Shown in pieces: positions 63 through 6,215 of a DNA stretch of 6,215 nt (positions within the stretch are counted from its first letter, which is position 1; every line of letters starts with the position of its first letter). The DNA comes from Candidatus Desantisbacteria bacterium CG1_02_49_89 (GTDB lineage Bacteria > Desantisbacteria > UBA1551): contig MNUP01000137.1 in assembly GCA_001871075.1 (NCBI GenBank), positions 1 through 6,215 of the forward strand, read 5' to 3'. The notes beneath the pieces are model-generated. The model made no database searches and was not told where the DNA came from. It was given only the letters and a program-made list of their open reading frames with translations. A program made the position numbers and the translations under genes.

Positions 63-98
63 GACTCTTTGACTCTAAATCTGCAATCTACAATGTCT
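63..98 (+). repeat. Octamer and heptamer word array in the leader of gene 1
   Basis: Two 8-bp words (GACTCTTT at 63-70, GACTCTAA at 71-78) run into 7-bp words AATCTGC (78-84) and AATCTAC (85-91), with a weaker third at 92-98. This is the upstream member of a series of 7-bp word arrays found in every gap of the window. The open frame of gene 1 extends back through this array to a TTG at 69, but that extension translates repeat sequence and is not a credible N-terminus. Confidence 0.55.
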
Positions 99-113
99 GT
101 AAACGGGGGCGTC

Positions 114-3100
114 ATGAAGAAATTGGTATTATTTTCAGTATTGGTTTTTACTGTGGTCTGTGGACTGCCCGCCCCGATGTCCATCGGGGCGAGGTCTCGC
201 CCGCCAATATTCGTGGCGGGCGGATTGACTTCAGTTTGTTTTGCCGCAGACCAGGTGACAAACGGACTTGTGACAGTAGGCCCTGTTGTAAAAGACGGGA
301 AGACCCTGGGATTTTATCTTGAAAAGGCCGGAACAAAGATAAGCGAAGTGCTGTTCGGGTCAGTGGGCAACATAACCGCGGATTCCGTGAAACAGGACGG
401 GAACAAACTCGTGTTTACGGGTTTGAAGGCAAACCCCACTCCTGTGCTTGGCCCTGGTTCATACGTGAGCGTTGAACTGCTTACCAATGATGAATTCCCA
501 CGCGTCAGGTTCAGGCTGGAACTGGTAAAGTTTGAAAAAAGCCTTTGGGAAGGAGTTCTTGACAAGGTGCCTTTCCACTTTATGGTATGCAGCATGCCCG
601 GGTCTGAGATATTTCACCAGAGGGGATGGCCGCTGGGAACTCCTGTTGTTGAGCCCTACGTGATACTGACTGACCCCGGCTCAGGCAGGACTATCGGCAG
701 CAACTTTAACAGGAACTGGTCTTACGACCCGCCAATAGGCGCGTATCCTGTGCCGGTCGCGGGATTGTGGAACGTTAAGGAAAAGAAATACGTGGCTTAC
801 CTTTTCCAGGAAGCCCGCTCAACCGACAACACAGAGAAATCCATCTCGACCACTTACTGCTGGGAGTTCCAGACAGCAAAAGAGTTCTTCTGCCTTGCCT
901 CAAAATACGCCAACGGTTACATGGACCTGAACTACCCCAAAGACGGGGATGTTCTTGAAAGCCATTTCAGGCTGATCTTTAACCTTAACCTGCCTTCTGA
1001 GGATGACCCCAACGCTTTCGTGCTCAACTATATCCACACAACATACGCGGACCTCATACCCGGGGTCCCGGAAATAAACGACATGAATTGGCTTCCCGGC
1101 AATCTCAGGTTCAAGACGCCGGGAAGGCCTTCTTTAAGCGGGCTTTTTCACACGGTCGGGGAAAAAGACCCGTTTATGAAGCCGGGTACTATTTTTAGTG
1201 ACGGCGTAAGCTACATTGACCCTGGCATAGAATTCGCTTACGACACAGGGAAAAGCACAGCGACCCTTAACTCCTTCAAGAAAAAAATGGAATTCCTTAT
1301 GGAAAAAGCGAAAAAATGGAAGGTGGGCGAGGATGAATGCGTTTTCTGGCAGCTGCCCATAGAGGGAGAATGGTGGCCTAATTTCGGCAAGGGCGTGGAA
1401 ACCATGCACAACGTGTGGGGAGTGCAGGAAGCAAGGGCGTTCCTCGAGGTTTATAAATGCGAGAAAGACCCGAAATACCTGCCGTACGTTGACGGCACGA
1501 CCAGGTGGCTGAAACACATGCTCTACACCAGGAACTGCTATCCTGACGTTACCGCGGCAATGTTCGCGTGGTCAGGCGGGCCCATAGTTTCATACCTTCT
1601 GCGCTATTATTACGTTTTCAGGGACGCGCCTGACGTTGAGCACAAGGCTCTTGCAGATCTGGCTTATAAGCTTGCCCGCTCTTACGCGTACAGGTACCTT
1701 CCGATCTGGACCACTGACAACGATAAGGCGGATAACCTGGATTCCGCGTTTTTCTGCGAGCCCAATGCAGGCGTGCCGTGGCTGGGCGCCGCGTGTTCCA
1801 ACGAGGTCTGGATAAATGCGTACATGGCAGCGGTTGCCTATGTTGCCACAGGCGACCCGCTTTTCGGGTATTATTTGCGCGGCATGCTTGAAAGGTGGCA
1901 CGACCTGTACAAGGACCTGGCCAAGCCAAAACCCCAGGCATACGGTTCGGCTGACCTTACGGAAAGGTTCGGGCTGTATGACGGAGCTCCGCAGGTAAAA
2001 GGGACAAGAGCGAATTACGGCGGGCTCTGGGGCGGGTTTGAAGCGATCTGCTACCCGCTTGCGGGATCAAAAATGAGGGTGCTGTGCGGGGAAAAGGCAG
2101 CCATGGCGTTTGACCAGGGCGGAGTTGAGACGAATTTCAGGGATTACAGGTATTACGGCAGCGGCAATTTTTCTTTTACAGTGGCAAGCACGCTTTCAGA
2201 GCCCTGCGCTGTCTCGATAACGTTTCCCTATTTCAAGCTCTCGGGAAAACCGGTGTATGTTATAAACAAGGGGCAGAAAAAAGCCCTTGTTGAGGACACG
2301 GATTTTAAGGTATACAAATTTTCTCCGGACTCAATGTTTGTAGGGGGAGTTTCAAACGGGGACATTGTGGCTGTGGGAGACTGGAACCCGGATGTTAAGC
2401 CGCTCTCCTGTTCCGTGGGCAAGACGCACAAGGTGGAAAAGCAGATAACTATCGAAAGGGACGGGTATTCAGCGGCTAACATCGCGAAGTCCTGCAACAC
2501 GGGCATCAAGGAAGACTGGGGCGATCCAGGGACAATGGCAGGATACGTGCCCGGCATTACTTTCCTGTGGGGAGTGCCGTTTTACCTTGTGCCCGGCTCT
2601 GATAACGCGGGCAAGGTCGCTGTAAGGAATGCTGTCGCAAAAGTGGATATTTCCTGCCAGCGGCTCTTCTTCCTTGTTTCAAACCCCGGGCCTAAGGCTT
2701 TGCTTTCACTGACATTTGCTGACGGTTCCAAACAGGACCTATCGGTCAAGGATTCGATCTGCGCGATAACCGGCTGGCCCCCTTGTTTCAAGTGGCGCAT
2801 TGACCTGATAACGGTTGCGGCAAAAGGCAAAGCGCTCAAGGAGGTAAAGGCAACTGATGTCAGCCTTTTCTCGGTTACAGGCACCCAGAGATCCGACAAG
2901 GATATCGCGGAAGCCCTTTCGCTCATAGCCGCAGAGGCAAAAAAGCAGGACATCGAGGCTAAATTCGTGAAAAAACTTGAAGGTCTTGCAGGAGAGTTCA
3001 AAAGGCTTTCAAAGCGCATAGCGGTCATTCCCGTGCCCCAGTTCTCAATAGAGCAGGTGCCTGCCGGAGCGCTTATGCGCAAGGCAGGGGTGCTGGGCGA

Positions 3101-3767
3101 TGTGGTAGTGCTCACGCCTGAACAGCTTATCTCAAAAGCCTTTAACGGCCAGAGGTATCCTGTGGCTGTTTACCTTGGCGGGGAACAGTATTACCAGACA
3201 GTCAAGGATGACGGAGATGCGGACCAGGCTATCATCAACTACCTGAAAACCGGGGGCCTGCTTGTCGTGATACCCAGCCCCAGCCAGCCTTTCCCGTTCT
3301 ATTATAATGAAAAAGGAAAGCCTGTTGTGTCAGCCCCGAAGTTCGGCATGACGATATCCGGAAGCGGGGCTCTTGACAGGCAGGATACATTAAAATACAG
3401 CCGGGTAACAGGATGGGAAAAACCCCCTGTTTCAAATCTTACGTTCAGGGTTAACCCGAAGCAGGACATAATAAAAGGTCTGCTGCCAGAAACATTTGCC
3501 TGGATGGAAGATGGGGACCAGAGATGGAGGCCTATGATAGGCGCGGTGCCTGCGCCCGGCGTTTACACGCCTGTGGTAAGCCTTTACGATGCCGATAACA
3601 ACTGCTACGGTGAAGGGATAGCTTATCTGGAATATAAGTCTGACCCGGTTGCAGGCGGAAAGATCATTTACGCCTGGCCCAGCCTTGCGAACCACGAAAA
3701 ATATTCCGGCACAATAATCCCGGCGCTTCTTGAATACGCGCTTAAGAGCATTAAGCTGGGCAACTGA
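114..3767 (+). CDS. Large exported multidomain protein, putative polysaccharide-acting, with GATase-like C-terminal domain
   Basis: This gene encodes 1217 residues from the ATG at 114. That start gives a classic signal peptide (MKK, then a hydrophobic core at residues 4-18) and has a weak G-run (105-109) upstream. Likely signal peptidase I cleavage is after VCFA (residue 44) or the next Ala. Residues 19-37 come from an in-frame palindromic insertion. After the signal, residues about 46-310 are beta-rich. Residues about 380-610 are helical and rich in Trp and Tyr, with acidic clusters such as EGEWW (417-421) and TTDNDKADN (533-541), resembling an alpha/alpha toroid of carbohydrate-active proteins. 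Residues 680-925 are again beta-rich. After a charged helical linker (926-968), residues 968-1217 look like a class I glutamine-amidotransferase-type Rossmann domain: AVIPVP, YLGGEQYY (1020-1027), an INYLKTGGLLVVI strand-turn (1041-1053) and a closing YAWPSLANHEKYSG segment. No nucleophile-elbow Cys is visible, so it is probably non-catalytic. I recognise no named family for the whole protein. The role in polysaccharide handling is inferred from export, fold and the GH172-like neighbour. Tandem stops (TGA TAA) end it. Confidence 0.85.
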   Translation: MKKLVLFSVLVFTVVCGLPAPMSIGARSRPPIFVAGGLTSVCFAADQVTNGLVTVGPVVKDGKTLGFYLEKAGTKISEVLFGSVGNITADSVKQDGNKLVFTGLKANPTPVLGPGSYVSVELLTNDEFPRVRFRLELVKFEKSLWEGVLDKVPFHFMVCSMPGSEIFHQRGWPLGTPVVEPYVILTDPGSGRTIGSNFNRNWSYDPPIGAYPVPVAGLWNVKEKKYVAYLFQEARSTDNTEKSISTTYCWEFQTAKEFFCLASKYANGYMDLNYPKDGDVLESHFRLIFNLNLPSEDDPNAFVLNYIHTTYADLIPGVPEINDMNWLPGNLRFKTPGRPSLSGLFHTVGEKDPFMKPGTIFSDGVSYIDPGIEFAYDTGKSTATLNSFKKKMEFLMEKAKKWKVGEDECVFWQLPIEGEWWPNFGKGVETMHNVWGVQEARAFLEVYKCEKDPKYLPYVDGTTRWLKHMLYTRNCYPDVTAAMFAWSGGPIVSYLLRYYYVFRDAPDVEHKALADLAYKLARSYAYRYLPIWTTDNDKADNLDSAFFCEPNAGVPWLGAACSNEVWINAYMAAVAYVATGDPLFGYYLRGMLERWHDLYKDLAKPKPQAYGSADLTERFGLYDGAPQVKGTRANYGGLWGGFEAICYPLAGSKMRVLCGEKAAMAFDQGGVETNFRDYRYYGSGNFSFTVASTLSEPCAVSITFPYFKLSGKPVYVINKGQKKALVEDTDFKVYKFSPDSMFVGGVSNGDIVAVGDWNPDVKPLSCSVGKTHKVEKQITIERDGYSAANIAKSCNTGIKEDWGDPGTMAGYVPGITFLWGVPFYLVPGSDNAGKVAVRNAVAKVDISCQRLFFLVSNPGPKALLSLTFADGSKQDLSVKDSICAITGWPPCFKWRIDLITVAAKGKALKEVKATDVSLFSVTGTQRSDKDIAEALSLIAAEAKKQDIEAKFVKKLEGLAGEFKRLSKRIAVIPVPQFSIEQVPAGALMRKAGVLGDVVVLTPEQLISKAFNGQRYPVAVYLGGEQYYQTVKDDGDADQAIINYLKTGGLLVVIPSPSQPFPFYYNEKGKPVVSAPKFGMTISGSGALDRQDTLKYSRVTGWEKPPVSNLTFRVNPKQDIIKGLLPETFAWMEDGDQRWRPMIGAVPAPGVYTPVVSLYDADNNCYGEGIAYLEYKSDPVAGGKIIYAWPSLANHEKYSGTIIPALLEYALKSIKLGN
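167..223 (+). repeat. 57-bp GC-rich palindromic element inserted in frame in the signal-peptide region
   Basis: Three overlapping palindromes make up the element. CGCCCCGATG (170-179) pairs perfectly with 182-191. GGGCGAG (187-193) pairs with 196-202. CGCCCGCCA (198-206) pairs perfectly with 214-222 around a 7-nt loop. The left end GCCCGCC (167-173) can also pair with 215-221, closing the unit. At 57 bp it adds exactly 19 codons (PAPMSIGARSRPPIFVAGG, residues 19-37), keeping the frame open. Removing it joins a hydrophobic core directly to LTSVCFA-ADQ, a normal-length signal peptide. It resembles in kind the palindromic elements known to insert in frame in bacterial genes (for example Rickettsia palindromic elements). 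It encodes no protein of its own and clear target duplications are not visible. Confidence 0.75.
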
Positions 3768-3774
3768 TAAATAA

Positions 3775-3809
3775 CGTTCATCGTGCGTCGTTCTTCGTTC
3801 ATCGTTTGA
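3775..3809 (+). repeat. Five-unit degenerate heptamer array (CGTTCAT type)
   Basis: Five consecutive 7-bp words begin 7 nt after the TGA of gene 1, at 3775, 3782, 3789, 3796 and 3803. The first and fourth are both CGTTCAT; the others differ at one to three positions and all begin with CGT. Non-coding; function unknown. The 10-mer TCATCGTGCG in it (3778-3787) recurs at 6157-6166 beyond gene 3. Confidence 0.75.
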
Positions 3810-3826
3810 ACATATGGCTGTTTCTG

Positions 3827-3863
3827 CGATGCACGACCCGAAAGGGCGAGGTACGATGCACGA
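3827..3863 (+). repeat. 10-bp direct repeats flanking a small hairpin that resembles part of the signal-peptide element
   Basis: CGATGCACGA occurs perfectly at 3827-3836 and 3854-3863. Between the copies are 17 bases containing CCC-GAAA-GGG (3837-3846), a short stem with a GNRA-type loop, followed by CGAGGTA. The 9-mer GGGCGAGGT (3844-3852) also occurs at 187-195 in the palindromic element of gene 1, where it likewise follows a CCCG...CGGG hairpin. A miniature or decayed copy of that element flanked by a duplicated target is one reading. Chance interruption of a heptamer array (CGATGCA words at 3827 and 3854) is another. Confidence 0.5.
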
Positions 3864-3868
3864 ATAAT

Positions 3869-3874
3869 GGGAGG
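3869..3874 (+). promoter_or_regulatory. Ribosome binding site of the GH172-like gene
   Basis: GGGAGG is a strong Shine-Dalgarno match placed 5 nt before the ATG at 3880, which decides that start. An ATG at 3876 in another frame is too close to the site, and an in-frame ATG at 3889 is 14 nt away. The site begins 5 nt after a 10-bp repeat (3854-3863) able to pair with 3781-3790. Confidence 0.75.
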
Positions 3875-3879
3875 CATGT

Positions 3880-4941
3880 ATGGATGACATGGATAAATTA
3901 AGCTTCATAAGCGGGCTGCCGATGATGTCAAACGCGAAAACAAGGTCGATCTCAGCTGAGAACCCCGACGGAAAGCCCGGAAGCGGGGCCCAGGCAGAGC
4001 CGAATATGAACGGCGCTGAAGCGATGCTGGGGAAGGGATGGAAGGTGCGGCCGTGCATAAGCCTTTTGAAGGGAATGACCACGACCCTCGCGGACATAGA
4101 AGGGCCCGGGATTATCCAGCACATATGGATCACGGTCTCAGAGCCCGCTTACAGGGACTGCGTCCTGCGTTTTTACTGGGACGGAGAAAAAGAGCCTTCG
4201 GTTGAAGTCCCGCTCGGGGATTTCTTCTGCAACGGCCACGCCCTGCGCTGTAAAATTAATTCGCTTATGGTGTGCGTCAACCCCTCAGGCGGGTTCAATT
4301 CATACTGGCCTATGCCTTTCAGGAAACACTGCAAAATAACCATTGAGAACCAGCGCTGGGAGGACATCCACGGGTTTTTCTACCAGGTGAATTTTTGCCT
4401 TGCTGATAAGATACCTGACGACGCGGCTTATTTCCACGCCCAGTGGAGGAGATGCGCCCGGCTTGATATGAAGAACCCTGACCACGTGATACTCGAGGGA
4501 ATAAAAGGCAGAGGCCATTATGTCGGGACTTTCCTGGCGTGGACCCAGCTGACAAACGGGTGGTGGGGAGAAGGAGAAATAAAGTTTTTCATTGACGATG
4601 ACAAAGAATATCCCACGATATGCGGCACAGGCACGGAAGATTATTTCTGCGGCGCCTGGGGTTTCGGCGGGGAAACCTATTCAACGCCTTTCCTGGGATA
4701 TCCGCTTTTCCGCAAAGAACCGGGCGAGGTCCCAAAACACGGGCTTTACAGGTGGCACGTGCTTGACCCGATAAGGTTTGAGAAGAAACTGAAAGTGACT
4801 ATACAGGCGCTCGGATGGTGGCTTAACGGCAAGTTCAAGCCGCTTGACGACGACATTGCGTCAGTCGGCTACTGGTACCAGGCAGAGCCGCACGCCCAGT
4901 TCCCGATACTTCCGGATGTGCCCGGACGCTGCCCAAGATAA
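3880..4941 (+). CDS. DUF2961 / GH172-family glycoside hydrolase
   Basis: This 353-residue protein has no signal peptide, so it is probably cytoplasmic. Family-type blocks appear in order: TRSISAENPDG (21-31), GPGIIQHIW (75-83), FYWDGEKEPSVEVPLGDFF (98-116), NPSGGFNSYWPMPF (134-147), GEGEIKFFIDDD (230-241), CGTGTEDYF (248-256) and ASVGYWYQ (327-334). DUF2961 was renamed glycoside hydrolase family 172 after characterisation of difructose dianhydride I synthase/hydrolase. Other members act on alpha-D-arabinofuranosides in D-arabinan. The family uses two catalytic glutamates. By their spacing E253 in GTEDYF and E231 or E233 in GEGE are the best candidates here, which is inference. The length covers the family core (a tandem jelly roll) with no extra domain. 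The actual substrate cannot be read from sequence; a furanoside is the family-based expectation. It lies 112 bp after the exported protein and 196 bp before the oxidoreductase, consistent with a carbohydrate-use locus. Confidence 0.9.
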   Translation: MDDMDKLSFISGLPMMSNAKTRSISAENPDGKPGSGAQAEPNMNGAEAMLGKGWKVRPCISLLKGMTTTLADIEGPGIIQHIWITVSEPAYRDCVLRFYWDGEKEPSVEVPLGDFFCNGHALRCKINSLMVCVNPSGGFNSYWPMPFRKHCKITIENQRWEDIHGFFYQVNFCLADKIPDDAAYFHAQWRRCARLDMKNPDHVILEGIKGRGHYVGTFLAWTQLTNGWWGEGEIKFFIDDDKEYPTICGTGTEDYFCGAWGFGGETYSTPFLGYPLFRKEPGEVPKHGLYRWHVLDPIRFEKKLKVTIQALGWWLNGKFKPLDDDIASVGYWYQAEPHAQFPILPDVPGRCPR

Positions 4942-4945
4942 AACA

Positions 4946-5024
4946 GTTAAAAGTTGAAAGTTGAACGTTGAAAGTTGAAAACGCTGAAGGCTGAATGCTG
5001 GATGCTAAATGTAAAATATAAAAT
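4946..5024 (+). repeat. Eleven-unit drifting heptamer array
   Basis: The array begins 4 nt after the stop of the GH172-like gene. Five words of GTTGAAA type start at 4946, 4953, 4960, 4967 and 4974. After a 2-nt slip, six more start at 4983, 4990, 4997, 5004, 5011 and 5018. They change gradually from GCTGAAG through GCTGGAT and GCTAAAT to GTAAAAT and ATAAAAT. Neighbouring units mostly differ at one or two positions while the ends of the array share little. Non-coding. Confidence 0.8.
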
Positions 5025-5122
5025 CTGTGACAATCTGTGTTAATCTGTGTCTAATTTTATTTCGTGATTTCGTGGAAATCTTAATCCGTATGAATTCGCG
5101 TTATCTAATCCGTTTGCATCCG
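5020..5122 (-). repeat. Degenerate decamer/octamer array, inverse of the leader repeat
   Basis: Read on the minus strand, 5049-5020 gives three tandem decamers of CACAGATTNN type that match 27-56 at 25 of 30 bases. Next come two perfect tandem octamers (ATTTCGTG at 5059-5066 and 5067-5074 on the plus strand), then TAATCCGT at 5082-5089 and 5106-5113. The reverse complement of 5092-5113 matches 28-45 at 17 of 18 bases with a 4-base insertion. The stretch therefore belongs to the same family as the gene 1 leader, in the opposite orientation. An open frame from 5027 runs through it into gene 3 but only translates repeat words. Confidence 0.7.
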
Positions 5123-5123
5123 C

Positions 5124-5131
5124 AAAAGGAG
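5124..5131 (+). promoter_or_regulatory. Ribosome binding site of the oxidoreductase gene
   Basis: AAAAGGAG lies 6 nt upstream of the ATG at 5138. It sits immediately after the repeat-filled gap and fixes the start at 5138 rather than any upstream in-frame codon. Confidence 0.8.
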
Positions 5132-5137
5132 TGGTAT

Positions 5138-6112
5138 ATGCTGAAAGTGGCTATGCTGAGTTTCTGGCACGTGCACGCTGAAGGCTACGCCAAGCAGTTA
5201 AGGGAAAGGAACGACAACAAGATCACCTGCATGTGGGACGAGATACCGCAGCGCGGCAAGGACTGGGCGGGAAAACTCGGTATTGATCTTGAGCCTGACC
5301 TGAGCAAGCTGCTGAAAAGGGATGACGTTGACGCGGTTGTAATAAATTCGCCTACAAACCTGCACGCGAAAATTATGATTGCCGCAGCGAAAGCCGGGAA
5401 GCACATTTTCACGGAAAAAGTAATGGCGCTTACCGTCAGGGAGTGCAAAGAGATCTCGGAAGCGGTCAAAAAAGCAGGCGTGAAATTCTGCGTTTCATTC
5501 CCCCAGCTTACAGTGCCTTACGTGCGGTTCGCGAAAAAGGCGATAGACGAAAAGATCATAGGTGACGTGACGCTTGCCAGGTTCAGGGCAGCGCACGCCG
5601 GAGCGTCCGCAGGATGGCTTCCGCCTCATTTCTTTGACCCTGTGCAGACAGGCGGAGGGGCGATGATGGACCTTGGCGCGCACCCGATGTATACGCTCAG
5701 GTACCTGCTGGGAAAGCCCAAAAGCATTAATTCCATATTCACTGTCCTGACAGGAAAGCAGGTTGAGGACAATTCCGTGTGCGCCATTGAATTTGAGAAC
5801 AAGGCGATAGGCGTATCGGAAGCGTCATTCGTGTCAGGCGGGGGAATGATAGGCCTTGAAGTTTACGGCACAAAAGGCTGCCTGATAGTTGAATCATCCG
5901 CTTCAGGCCCTGTCATCAAAATGGTCCCTGCTGAGCTTGAAAAACAGATCTCCCTGCCCCCTGCCCTGCCAAGGCCGATCGATATCTGGGTGGACGGGAT
6001 TCTAAAGGGAACCGAAATTCCGTTCGGCACAGAACAGGGCACCCAGCTAACCGAACTTATGGAAGCCGCTTATAAATCGTTCCGCGAAAAGCGCCAGGTC
6101 TCCATTAAATAA
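5138..6112 (+). CDS. Gfo/Idh/MocA-family NAD(P)-dependent oxidoreductase
   Basis: This 324-residue cytoplasmic protein has a usual length for the family. The N-terminal Rossmann half (1-120) opens with LKVAMLSFWHVHA (2-14) and continues with DDVDAVVINSPTNLHAKI (62-79) and KHIFTEKVMAL (88-98). The C-terminal half carries GGGAMMDLGAHP (172-183), the family's Asp/His substrate-site motif, with D178 and H182. Family members oxidise, reduce or epimerise sugars, inositols and related polyols with NAD(P). Two departures are visible. The glycine-rich GxGxxG dinucleotide loop is replaced by SFWHVHA, and the EKP signature reads E93-K94-V95. K94, the usual catalytic lysine, is kept. This fits a divergent subfamily rather than a broken gene, because the rest is well preserved and the frame is open. 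The substrate is unknown; a sugar released by the upstream hydrolases is a reasonable inference. Confidence 0.93.
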   Translation: MLKVAMLSFWHVHAEGYAKQLRERNDNKITCMWDEIPQRGKDWAGKLGIDLEPDLSKLLKRDDVDAVVINSPTNLHAKIMIAAAKAGKHIFTEKVMALTVRECKEISEAVKKAGVKFCVSFPQLTVPYVRFAKKAIDEKIIGDVTLARFRAAHAGASAGWLPPHFFDPVQTGGGAMMDLGAHPMYTLRYLLGKPKSINSIFTVLTGKQVEDNSVCAIEFENKAIGVSEASFVSGGGMIGLEVYGTKGCLIVESSASGPVIKMVPAELEKQISLPPALPRPIDIWVDGILKGTEIPFGTEQGTQLTELMEAAYKSFREKRQVSIK

Positions 6113-6113
6113 C

Positions 6114-6141
6114 GCACATAGCACATGGCATATTGCATATG
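6114..6141 (+). repeat. Four-unit degenerate heptamer array (GCACATA/GCATATG type)
   Basis: Four 7-bp words start at 6114, 6121, 6128 and 6135, the first only 1 nt after the TAA of gene 3. The first two share GCACAT and the last two share GCATAT. CATATGGC at 6136-6143 also occurs at 3811-3818. Non-coding; function unknown. Confidence 0.7.
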
Positions 6142-6215
6142 GCGAAAAAAATAAGATCATCGTGCGCCGCAAAAGACAAATTAACAGGGAACTTAAGAGA
6201 ACTTAAAAAAGGTAC
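6142..6215 (+). other. Gene-free right edge of the window
   Basis: No open frame of note is present. The stretch contains an A7 run (6145-6151), the 10-mer TCATCGTGCG (6157-6166) shared with 3778-3787, and two GAACTTAA words exactly 10 bp apart (6189-6196 and 6199-6206). The AAAAAAGG close to the edge could be the ribosome binding site of a gene starting beyond the window. No stem precedes the A-run that would make a terminator on either strand. Confidence 0.4.

Follow-up and report, generated by a model that had tools for sequence, protein, structure and literature searches.

A contig of Candidatus Desantisbacteria bacterium CG1_02_49_89 (MNUP01000137.1; all 6,215 nt of it were analyzed and are referred to as the window) holds tandem arrays of degenerate 7-bp words in the gaps between its genes, and the word differs from gap to gap. 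What, then, is being kept at such sites, if not the sequence? Heptamer repeats have been on record in bacteria for decades, and we know of no explanation for a unit of seven bases. A first-pass annotation of the window, made from the letters alone, noticed the arrays and their constant period, and it missed that they are largely paired. Herein, we report that the heptamer arrays are largely the arms of hairpins between neighboring, mostly co-directional genes, and that at orthologous gaps the word is often replaced while the hairpin stays, which suggests that structure and repeat length are kept, not sequence. Should the heptamer serve as the building block of a hairpin arm, the matter of why it has seven bases becomes a concrete structural question.

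Heptamer Arrays and Their Pairing in the Source Genome

The window belongs to a genome of 2.48 Mb in 150 contigs, of which we sampled 60 stretches (816 kb, approximately one third), with genes called by a hexamer-scored open reading frame caller; part of this sample had been picked for contigs with GTTGAA arrays, which slightly inflates the fraction of that word. The first-pass annotation had proposed genome-wide autocorrelation at lag 7 as the measure of its claims, and intergenic lag-7 identity was indeed above that of shuffled sequence (0.295 vs 0.265; z 20), with echoes at lag 14 (z 30) and lag 21 (z 16). Its expectation that such arrays are limited to non-coding DNA was borne out as well, as the coding DNA of the sample had a lag-7 identity of 0.257 and no excess. 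The claim that every gap holds an array held for all four gaps of this small window, where each gap was compared with 2000 dinucleotide-preserving shuffles of itself (three gaps hold arrays equaled in none of the shuffles, while the first array is weak), but not genome-wide, where lag-7 arrays occupied 167 of the 456 co-directional gaps (~37%), against 0 in shuffles. Arrays at lags of 8, 9, and 10 were present in 71, 43, and 58 co-directional gaps, and those at lags 4 to 6 and 11 to 13 in only 0 to 6 each. Placement after stop codons, also noted in the window, was favored in the sample: 86 arrays lie within 15 nt of a stop codon, compared to 27 expected from uniform placement. Neighboring gene pairs with a gap are themselves overwhelmingly co-directional in this genome (456 of 472, with 9 divergent and 7 convergent).

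The pairing follows a simple anatomy. In many gaps, the stop codon is directly followed by an array, and the reverse complement of that array stands ahead of the next gene, such that the 5' arm begins within a few bases of the upstream stop and the end of the 3' arm falls between a few and a few tens of bases short of the downstream gene; the arms are made of tandem 7-mers, less often 8- to 10-mers, that are complementary within the gap. When words from other gaps serve as the reference, the sense strand of stop-proximal arrays shows the word itself (79 v 4), and that of arrays close to the following start shows its reverse complement (60 v 5). Inverted repeats were found in 211 of 430 gaps, compared to 36 in shuffles, and 39% of the gaps of 40-400 nt fold with a z below -3. 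A reverse-complement partner (score of at least 12) was detected in the own gap of 91 of the 239 arrays, vs 10.9% when it was sought in other array-bearing gaps. Single-arm arrays exist too, as at window positions 4942-5024.

Word Turnover at Orthologous Gaps

The gap between the core division genes ftsA and ftsZ in Hymenobacter provides a natural experiment, in that a stem has been kept there across 70 species while its sequence was repeatedly replaced. In this comparison, for which genes were named via NCBIfam equivalogs, the gap measures 80-161 nt and holds a palindrome in 69 of the 70 species, with a mean score of 21.1 against a shuffled mean of 7.8 and a shuffled maximum of 13; L325 is the clear exception, and a few others come close to the highest shuffled score. 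Of the 70 gaps, 47 have 7 as their best period and 18 have 8; the words include AATTATG, CATTTAAC, AATTAAG, AATGTTG, CAATGAG, AGCTGTT, GGGTCTTG, GTGAATGG, and others, with a non-heptamer palindrome, GTCATGCTGAGG, also occupying the gap. Parsimony on the ftsZ tree gave approximately 37 changes of word label, a figure to be taken as an order of magnitude, given heuristic labels and a weak tree. In one pair, L273 and L287, the starts of ftsZ are 97.8% identical and the ends of ftsA 88%, and the hairpins are unrelated. The replacement hairpin of L287 has no second full copy in its own genome, and among 12 other Hymenobacter genomes a copy was found in one, at an orthologous-looking place. The gap between pyrH and frr shows at least three words (AGTTGTC, a GTTGAAT type, and CAATTAAC/GTGAGCA), with 13 of 22 palindrome scores at or above 14 and a shuffled maximum of 13.

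The constancy of the period under a changing word, first noticed in the window, therefore holds both between the gaps of one genome and at orthologous gaps across species. Because the stem is kept while its sequence is replaced, ordinary searches for RNA elements, which look for conserved sequence, would miss such a stem, and the ftsA-ftsZ slot offers a test case for the speed of DNA rewriting by fold-back copying. As a separate observation, GTCATGCTGAGGAACGAAGCATC or a near relative, a non-heptamer palindrome, fills the ftsA-ftsZ gap in L286, L291, L295, L322, and L329, and resembles a dispersed element of the source genome, where it reads GTCATTGCGAG.

Reuse of Words within and across Phyla

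The first-pass annotation went too far in giving each array a word of its own. The 239 arrays of the sample reduce to 67 consensus words, among which AATTATGA, ACGTCGT, GTTGAAA, AACGTGT, and others recur; in the source genome, the pattern AATTATGARTTATGA (word AATTATGA) has 189 matches and its reversed form 0, and GTTGAANGTTGAA (GTTGAAA type) has 49 matches vs 14 for the reversed form. A small set of words reused within a genome and the confinement of tandem 7-nt units to intergenic DNA, both marks of heptameric simple sequence repeats (SSR) and short tandemly repeated repetitive sequences (STRR), were thus both found here. Likewise, the statement that this is not a spreading sequence family was too strong; some hairpin copies did spread, because ~15 AATTATG hairpins of the source genome share a loop core.

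The words also reach well beyond this lineage. A search of GTDB genomes with a strict hairpin pattern (word AATTATGA, 25-55 nt spacer) returned at least 117 stretches. Among the matches listed, most are from Bacteroidota, and the other hosts are Chloroflexota, Planctomycetota, Verrucomicrobiota, Acidobacteriota, Hydrogenedentota, and one gammaproteobacterium. The loops of these hairpins are unrelated between phyla. When 28 of the matched genomes were searched whole, each held 1 to 55 matches, and the reversed pattern had zero in all of them; hairpins or arrays of other words were also present at the same loci in matched genomes. The string AATTATGAATTATGA and three related word strings had no occurrence in the open-access papers searched. 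We also considered whether the heptamers characterize the entire phylum of the source organism and rejected this, as the only other genome of that phylum examined, from the same order, showed no lag-7 excess and 2 arrays in 85 gaps, albeit in a small sample (20 contigs with 13 kb of intergenic DNA) of a genome that is 87% complete.

A Possible Role in RNA at Some Sites

If a stem acts as RNA, its sense-strand mismatches should be enriched in G.T (that is, G.U) relative to A.C. In the ftsA-ftsZ stems, G.T exceeded A.C by 136 to 58, and by 19 to 3 when word families were counted, above the ratio of 1.28 given by loop composition. One Hymenobacter genome had 70 G.T v 39 A.C in its co-directional gaps and 23 of each in its convergent plus divergent gaps. 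The counts were even in the stems of the source genome (227 v 252) and in those of pyrH-frr (25 v 21). A role in RNA is thereby supported at the ftsA-ftsZ slot, as a reading of mismatch patterns, and not in general; for the source genome, we reject a general RNA function on account of the even ratio.

Possible Mechanism of Rewriting and Alternative Explanations

How could a word change on both sides of a stem at once? For the AATTATGA hairpins of other genomes (n=39), the two arms of a hairpin match each other at 0.767, vs 0.682 when arms are swapped between hairpins (sd 0.015; the maximum over 1000 swaps was 0.726). Across all 80 AATTATGA hairpins, the A/G unit is the same in the two arms of 58 and different in 22. 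Because own arms match better than same-word arms from other hairpins, the arms of this word co-evolve in register. In the source genome, moreover, a single apex core, AAGGA..TTTATTTAAAT..TCCTT, is flanked by arms that represent at least three different words (AATTATG, GATCCTA, and GCGTGTCA).

We give about an even chance to the proposal that these are hairpins with heptamer arms rewritten in place by slippage and arm-to-arm template switching. Slippage between tandem units would spread a variant word along one arm, and a template switch within the strand, from one arm of the imperfect palindrome to the other, would copy it across, with the outcome that the word drifts or is replaced and the stem survives. 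At some slots, the stem may be kept for a transcript role between the two genes, be it in stability, processing, or translational coupling, while elsewhere, as in the source genome, hairpins would have increased in number and show no sign of acting as RNA. Such rewriting in place fits the co-variation of the arms, the one apex core with several words, and the single-copy replacement hairpin. Homogenization of the arms of inverted repeats by template switching is on record (PMC8604942), and the correction of quasipalindromes by this route likewise makes arms match (PMC8604942, PMC7202029), but these two reports deal with ordinary imperfect palindromes and not with tandem-repeat arms whose word turns over.

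Several points weigh against this proposal or the pairing on which it builds. No partner was detected within the own gap for ~60% of the source-genome arrays, and the mismatch counts are even in both the source genome and pyrH-frr. Some replacements are complete, loop included (L273/L287), and look more like a jump than gradual drift. The turnover estimate draws on an ftsZ tree of 360 columns in which 14 of 67 inner branches are well supported and on heuristic word labels, and genes were called with a home-made caller. Finally, slippage and template switching alone leave the preference for periods of 7 to 10, and 7 above all, unexplained.

The main rival, particularly for the source genome, is an origin as small non-autonomous mobile palindromes, similar to repetitive extragenic palindromic (REP) sequences or miniature inverted-repeat transposable elements and moved by Y1 tyrosine transposases or the like, in which case words would be element families and a word change would be an insertion swap. 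We consider this unlikely, if still a serious contender. The source genome has 10 matches to Y1_Tnp (PF01797), but its array-free phylum relative also has them (3). The loop core shared by ~15 AATTATG hairpins, the mutual relatedness of the spacers of Parabacteroides hairpins, and the nesting of palindromes within one another all speak for mobility, but same-word loops are unrelated between phyla and the replacement hairpin is single-copy in its own genome. The Parabacteroides spacers form a single family that occurs in either orientation, as read without correction for gene direction, and we draw no support for spacer inversion from this. One hairpin-occupied Parabacteroides slot is hairpin-free in relatives, with a gap of 27-44 nt, as an insertion would predict; in that empty-site comparison no target-site duplication was legible, the flanks being too diverged. 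Further, an extreme hot spot would be needed to account for an occupancy of 69/70 together with ~37 word changes. Like the REP palindromes with their REP-associated tyrosine transposases (PMC3733652), the hairpins are extragenic, lie downstream of genes, come in several families per genome, and occur in a source genome with Y1 transposases, but a REP measures 20-40 bp and bears an unpaired GTAG or CGTC tag, whereas the arms here are tandem heptamers whose word varies by site. No constant GTAG/CGTC tag was visible in the listed hairpins, as seen without a systematic tag scan, and the word ACGTCGT itself contains CGTC. The Y1_Tnp loci of the source genome include L236 and L238.

A variant that starts from the slots themselves supposes that, in several phyla, a conserved hairpin slot inherits a stem of 7- to 10-nt units while its word is swapped by an active writing process, either a fixed-step enzyme or a specific coupling of slippage to fold-back copying, with structure and period passed on and sequence not; we find this rather doubtful.

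It is improbable that slippage made these arrays as short tandem repeats of the familiar sort (cyanobacterial STRR or heptameric SSR) and that their pairing follows only from the presence of one word on both strands of a gap. Heptameric SSRs occur in excess in many bacteria and have seldom been studied in detail, as stated in PMC4692102, and most source-genome arrays have no detected partner arm. Their polarity agrees too: the GGGNATC and GGGGAYT repeats of Xanthomonas and Nostoc (PMC4692102) have a 7-nt period, lie between aligned genes, and, as here, stand on the coding strand after a stop and on the non-coding strand before a start. Against this, own arms pair better than same-word arms swapped between hairpins, partner arms are 3.5 times commoner in the own gap than in other array gaps, and the hairpin persists through word change. 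The GGGNATC and GGGGAYT repeats have been proposed to form G-quadruplexes (PMC4692102), whereas stems are formed here and few of the words are rich in G.

An identity as intrinsic terminators or attenuators of transcription, with stems made of repeats, seems quite improbable. The 5' arm directly follows stop codons, and in other genomes hairpins are mildly depleted between divergent genes (7 of 67 hairpins vs 60 of 337 gaps), but some hairpins do lie there and the stems are often A+T-rich. Intrinsic termination is unlikely because no T-run follows the stems, either in the source genome (T fraction 0.327 v 0.315 mirrored) or at ftsA-ftsZ (0.291 after the stem v 0.265 mirrored). Very improbable, lastly, is a dedicated copying activity with a 7- to 10-nt step, such as a reverse transcriptase or a telomerase-like enzyme writing the arms from a template: the sharp period window with nearly nothing at 4-6 or 11-13, the same word with unrelated loops in unrelated phyla, and the lack of lag-7 excess in the only other phylum genome examined would suit it, but no candidate enzyme or template turned up, without a systematic search for one, and imperfect, co-varying arms are explicable by known replication errors. 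A copying enzyme and a binding protein with 7-nt spacing, both put forward in the first-pass annotation, are candidates at most.

Relation to Known Heptamer Repeats

Earlier work had already described heptamer repeats and, for cyanobacteria, some hairpins built from them. A 7-bp STRR hairpin that several cyanobacteria are reported to have between hupS and hupL was suggested to act in transcript stability or translational coupling (PMC2670836). The arrays described here resemble it in their 7-bp tandem units, their intergenic location, and the repeat hairpin between linked genes, but differ in having many words per genome, in the replacement of the word at orthologous gaps with the stem kept, and in hosts of other phyla. 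The TAACTGA repeats of Beggiatoaceae, Cyanobacteria, and Bacteroidetes (PMC4679880) are likewise intergenic heptamer direct repeats that are patchy across phyla; they are described as one word, with related heptamers rare and only one indirect repeat noted, whereas many words and often inverted pairs occur here. For paired heptamer arms as a general class, and for word turnover at conserved slots, we found no description in the open-access literature.

Features of the Window and Nested Palindromes

The genes and arrays of the window are collected in Table 1. The segment at 3775-3806 has a lag-7 score of 14, which none of 2000 shuffles equaled, and the hairpin at 3775-3862 folds at -40.8 kcal/mol (z -3.6); its 3' arm is apparently broken up by a small palindrome, CCCGAAAGGG. 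A partner arm of the last array, if any, may lie past the contig end at 6215. Tandem Repeats Finder detects the window arrays at 3775-3806, 4945-4980, and 4983-5011, and not the first and last arrays. An Rfam scan of the window gave no match to a known RNA family.

Table 1. Genes and repeat features of the 6,215-nt window
Feature	Position	Strand	Details
Weak heptamer array AATCTGC AATCTAC AAT	78..94	+	17 nt; lag-7 score 7.8, P=0.007 (2000 shuffles)
Gene 1	114..3767	+	1217 aa, without Pfam match
Hairpin 5' arm, heptamers CGTTCAT CGTGCGT CGTTCTT CGTTCAT	3775..3805	+	7 nt past stop codon of gene 1
Hairpin 3' arm CGATGCACGA..TACGATGCACG	3826..3862	+	pairs with 3775-3805 in minimum-energy fold
Gene 2, DUF2961 protein	3880..4941	+	PF11175, E 2e-95
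GTTGAAA-type heptamer array, single-armed (by inspection)	4942..4980	+	from stop codon of DUF2961 gene; lag-7 score 23, 0/2000 shuffles
Array continued with drifting word GCTGAAG, GCTGAAT, GCTGGAT, GCTAAAT, GTAAAAT	4980..5024	+	lag-7 score 20, 0/2000 shuffles; words from direct reading
Longer-period arrays in gap after DUF2961 gene: 10-mer AATCTGTGTT (5022-5055), 8-mer ATTTCGTG (5059-5074)	5022..5074	+	Tandem Repeats Finder
Gene 3, GFO/IDH/MocA oxidoreductase	5138..6112	+	PF01408 + PF22725
Heptamer array GCACATA GCACATG GCATATT GCATATG	6114..6143	+	1 nt past stop codon; lag-7 score 14, 0/2000 shuffles

The gaps of the source genome are rich in repeats of other kinds. Of 102 kb of sampled intergenic DNA, nearly half (48.4 kb) has a match in another gap, and nested in the gaps are many other palindromes (GTCATTGCGAG..GCAATC, TCCCCCTTTA..AAAGGGGGA, and CAGGGCTAAAGCCCTG) as well as arms with periods of 8 to 11, for example ACCACGAAATCACGAAA. 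In two gaps (L066:16542 and L066:7759), heptamer arrays of two different words are broken by a small palindrome, CCCCAAAGGGATCC.TTCGG, which suggests that the palindrome was inserted into existing arrays. Finally, the signal-peptide region of gene 1 contains, in frame and at window positions 168-222, a palindromic element rich in G+C (CCCGCCCCGATGTCCATCGGGGCGAGGTCTCGCCCGCC..GGCGGGCGGA); the element has ~22 relatives in the 816 kb, mostly in gaps and some within called genes, and together they recall the Rickettsia palindromic elements.

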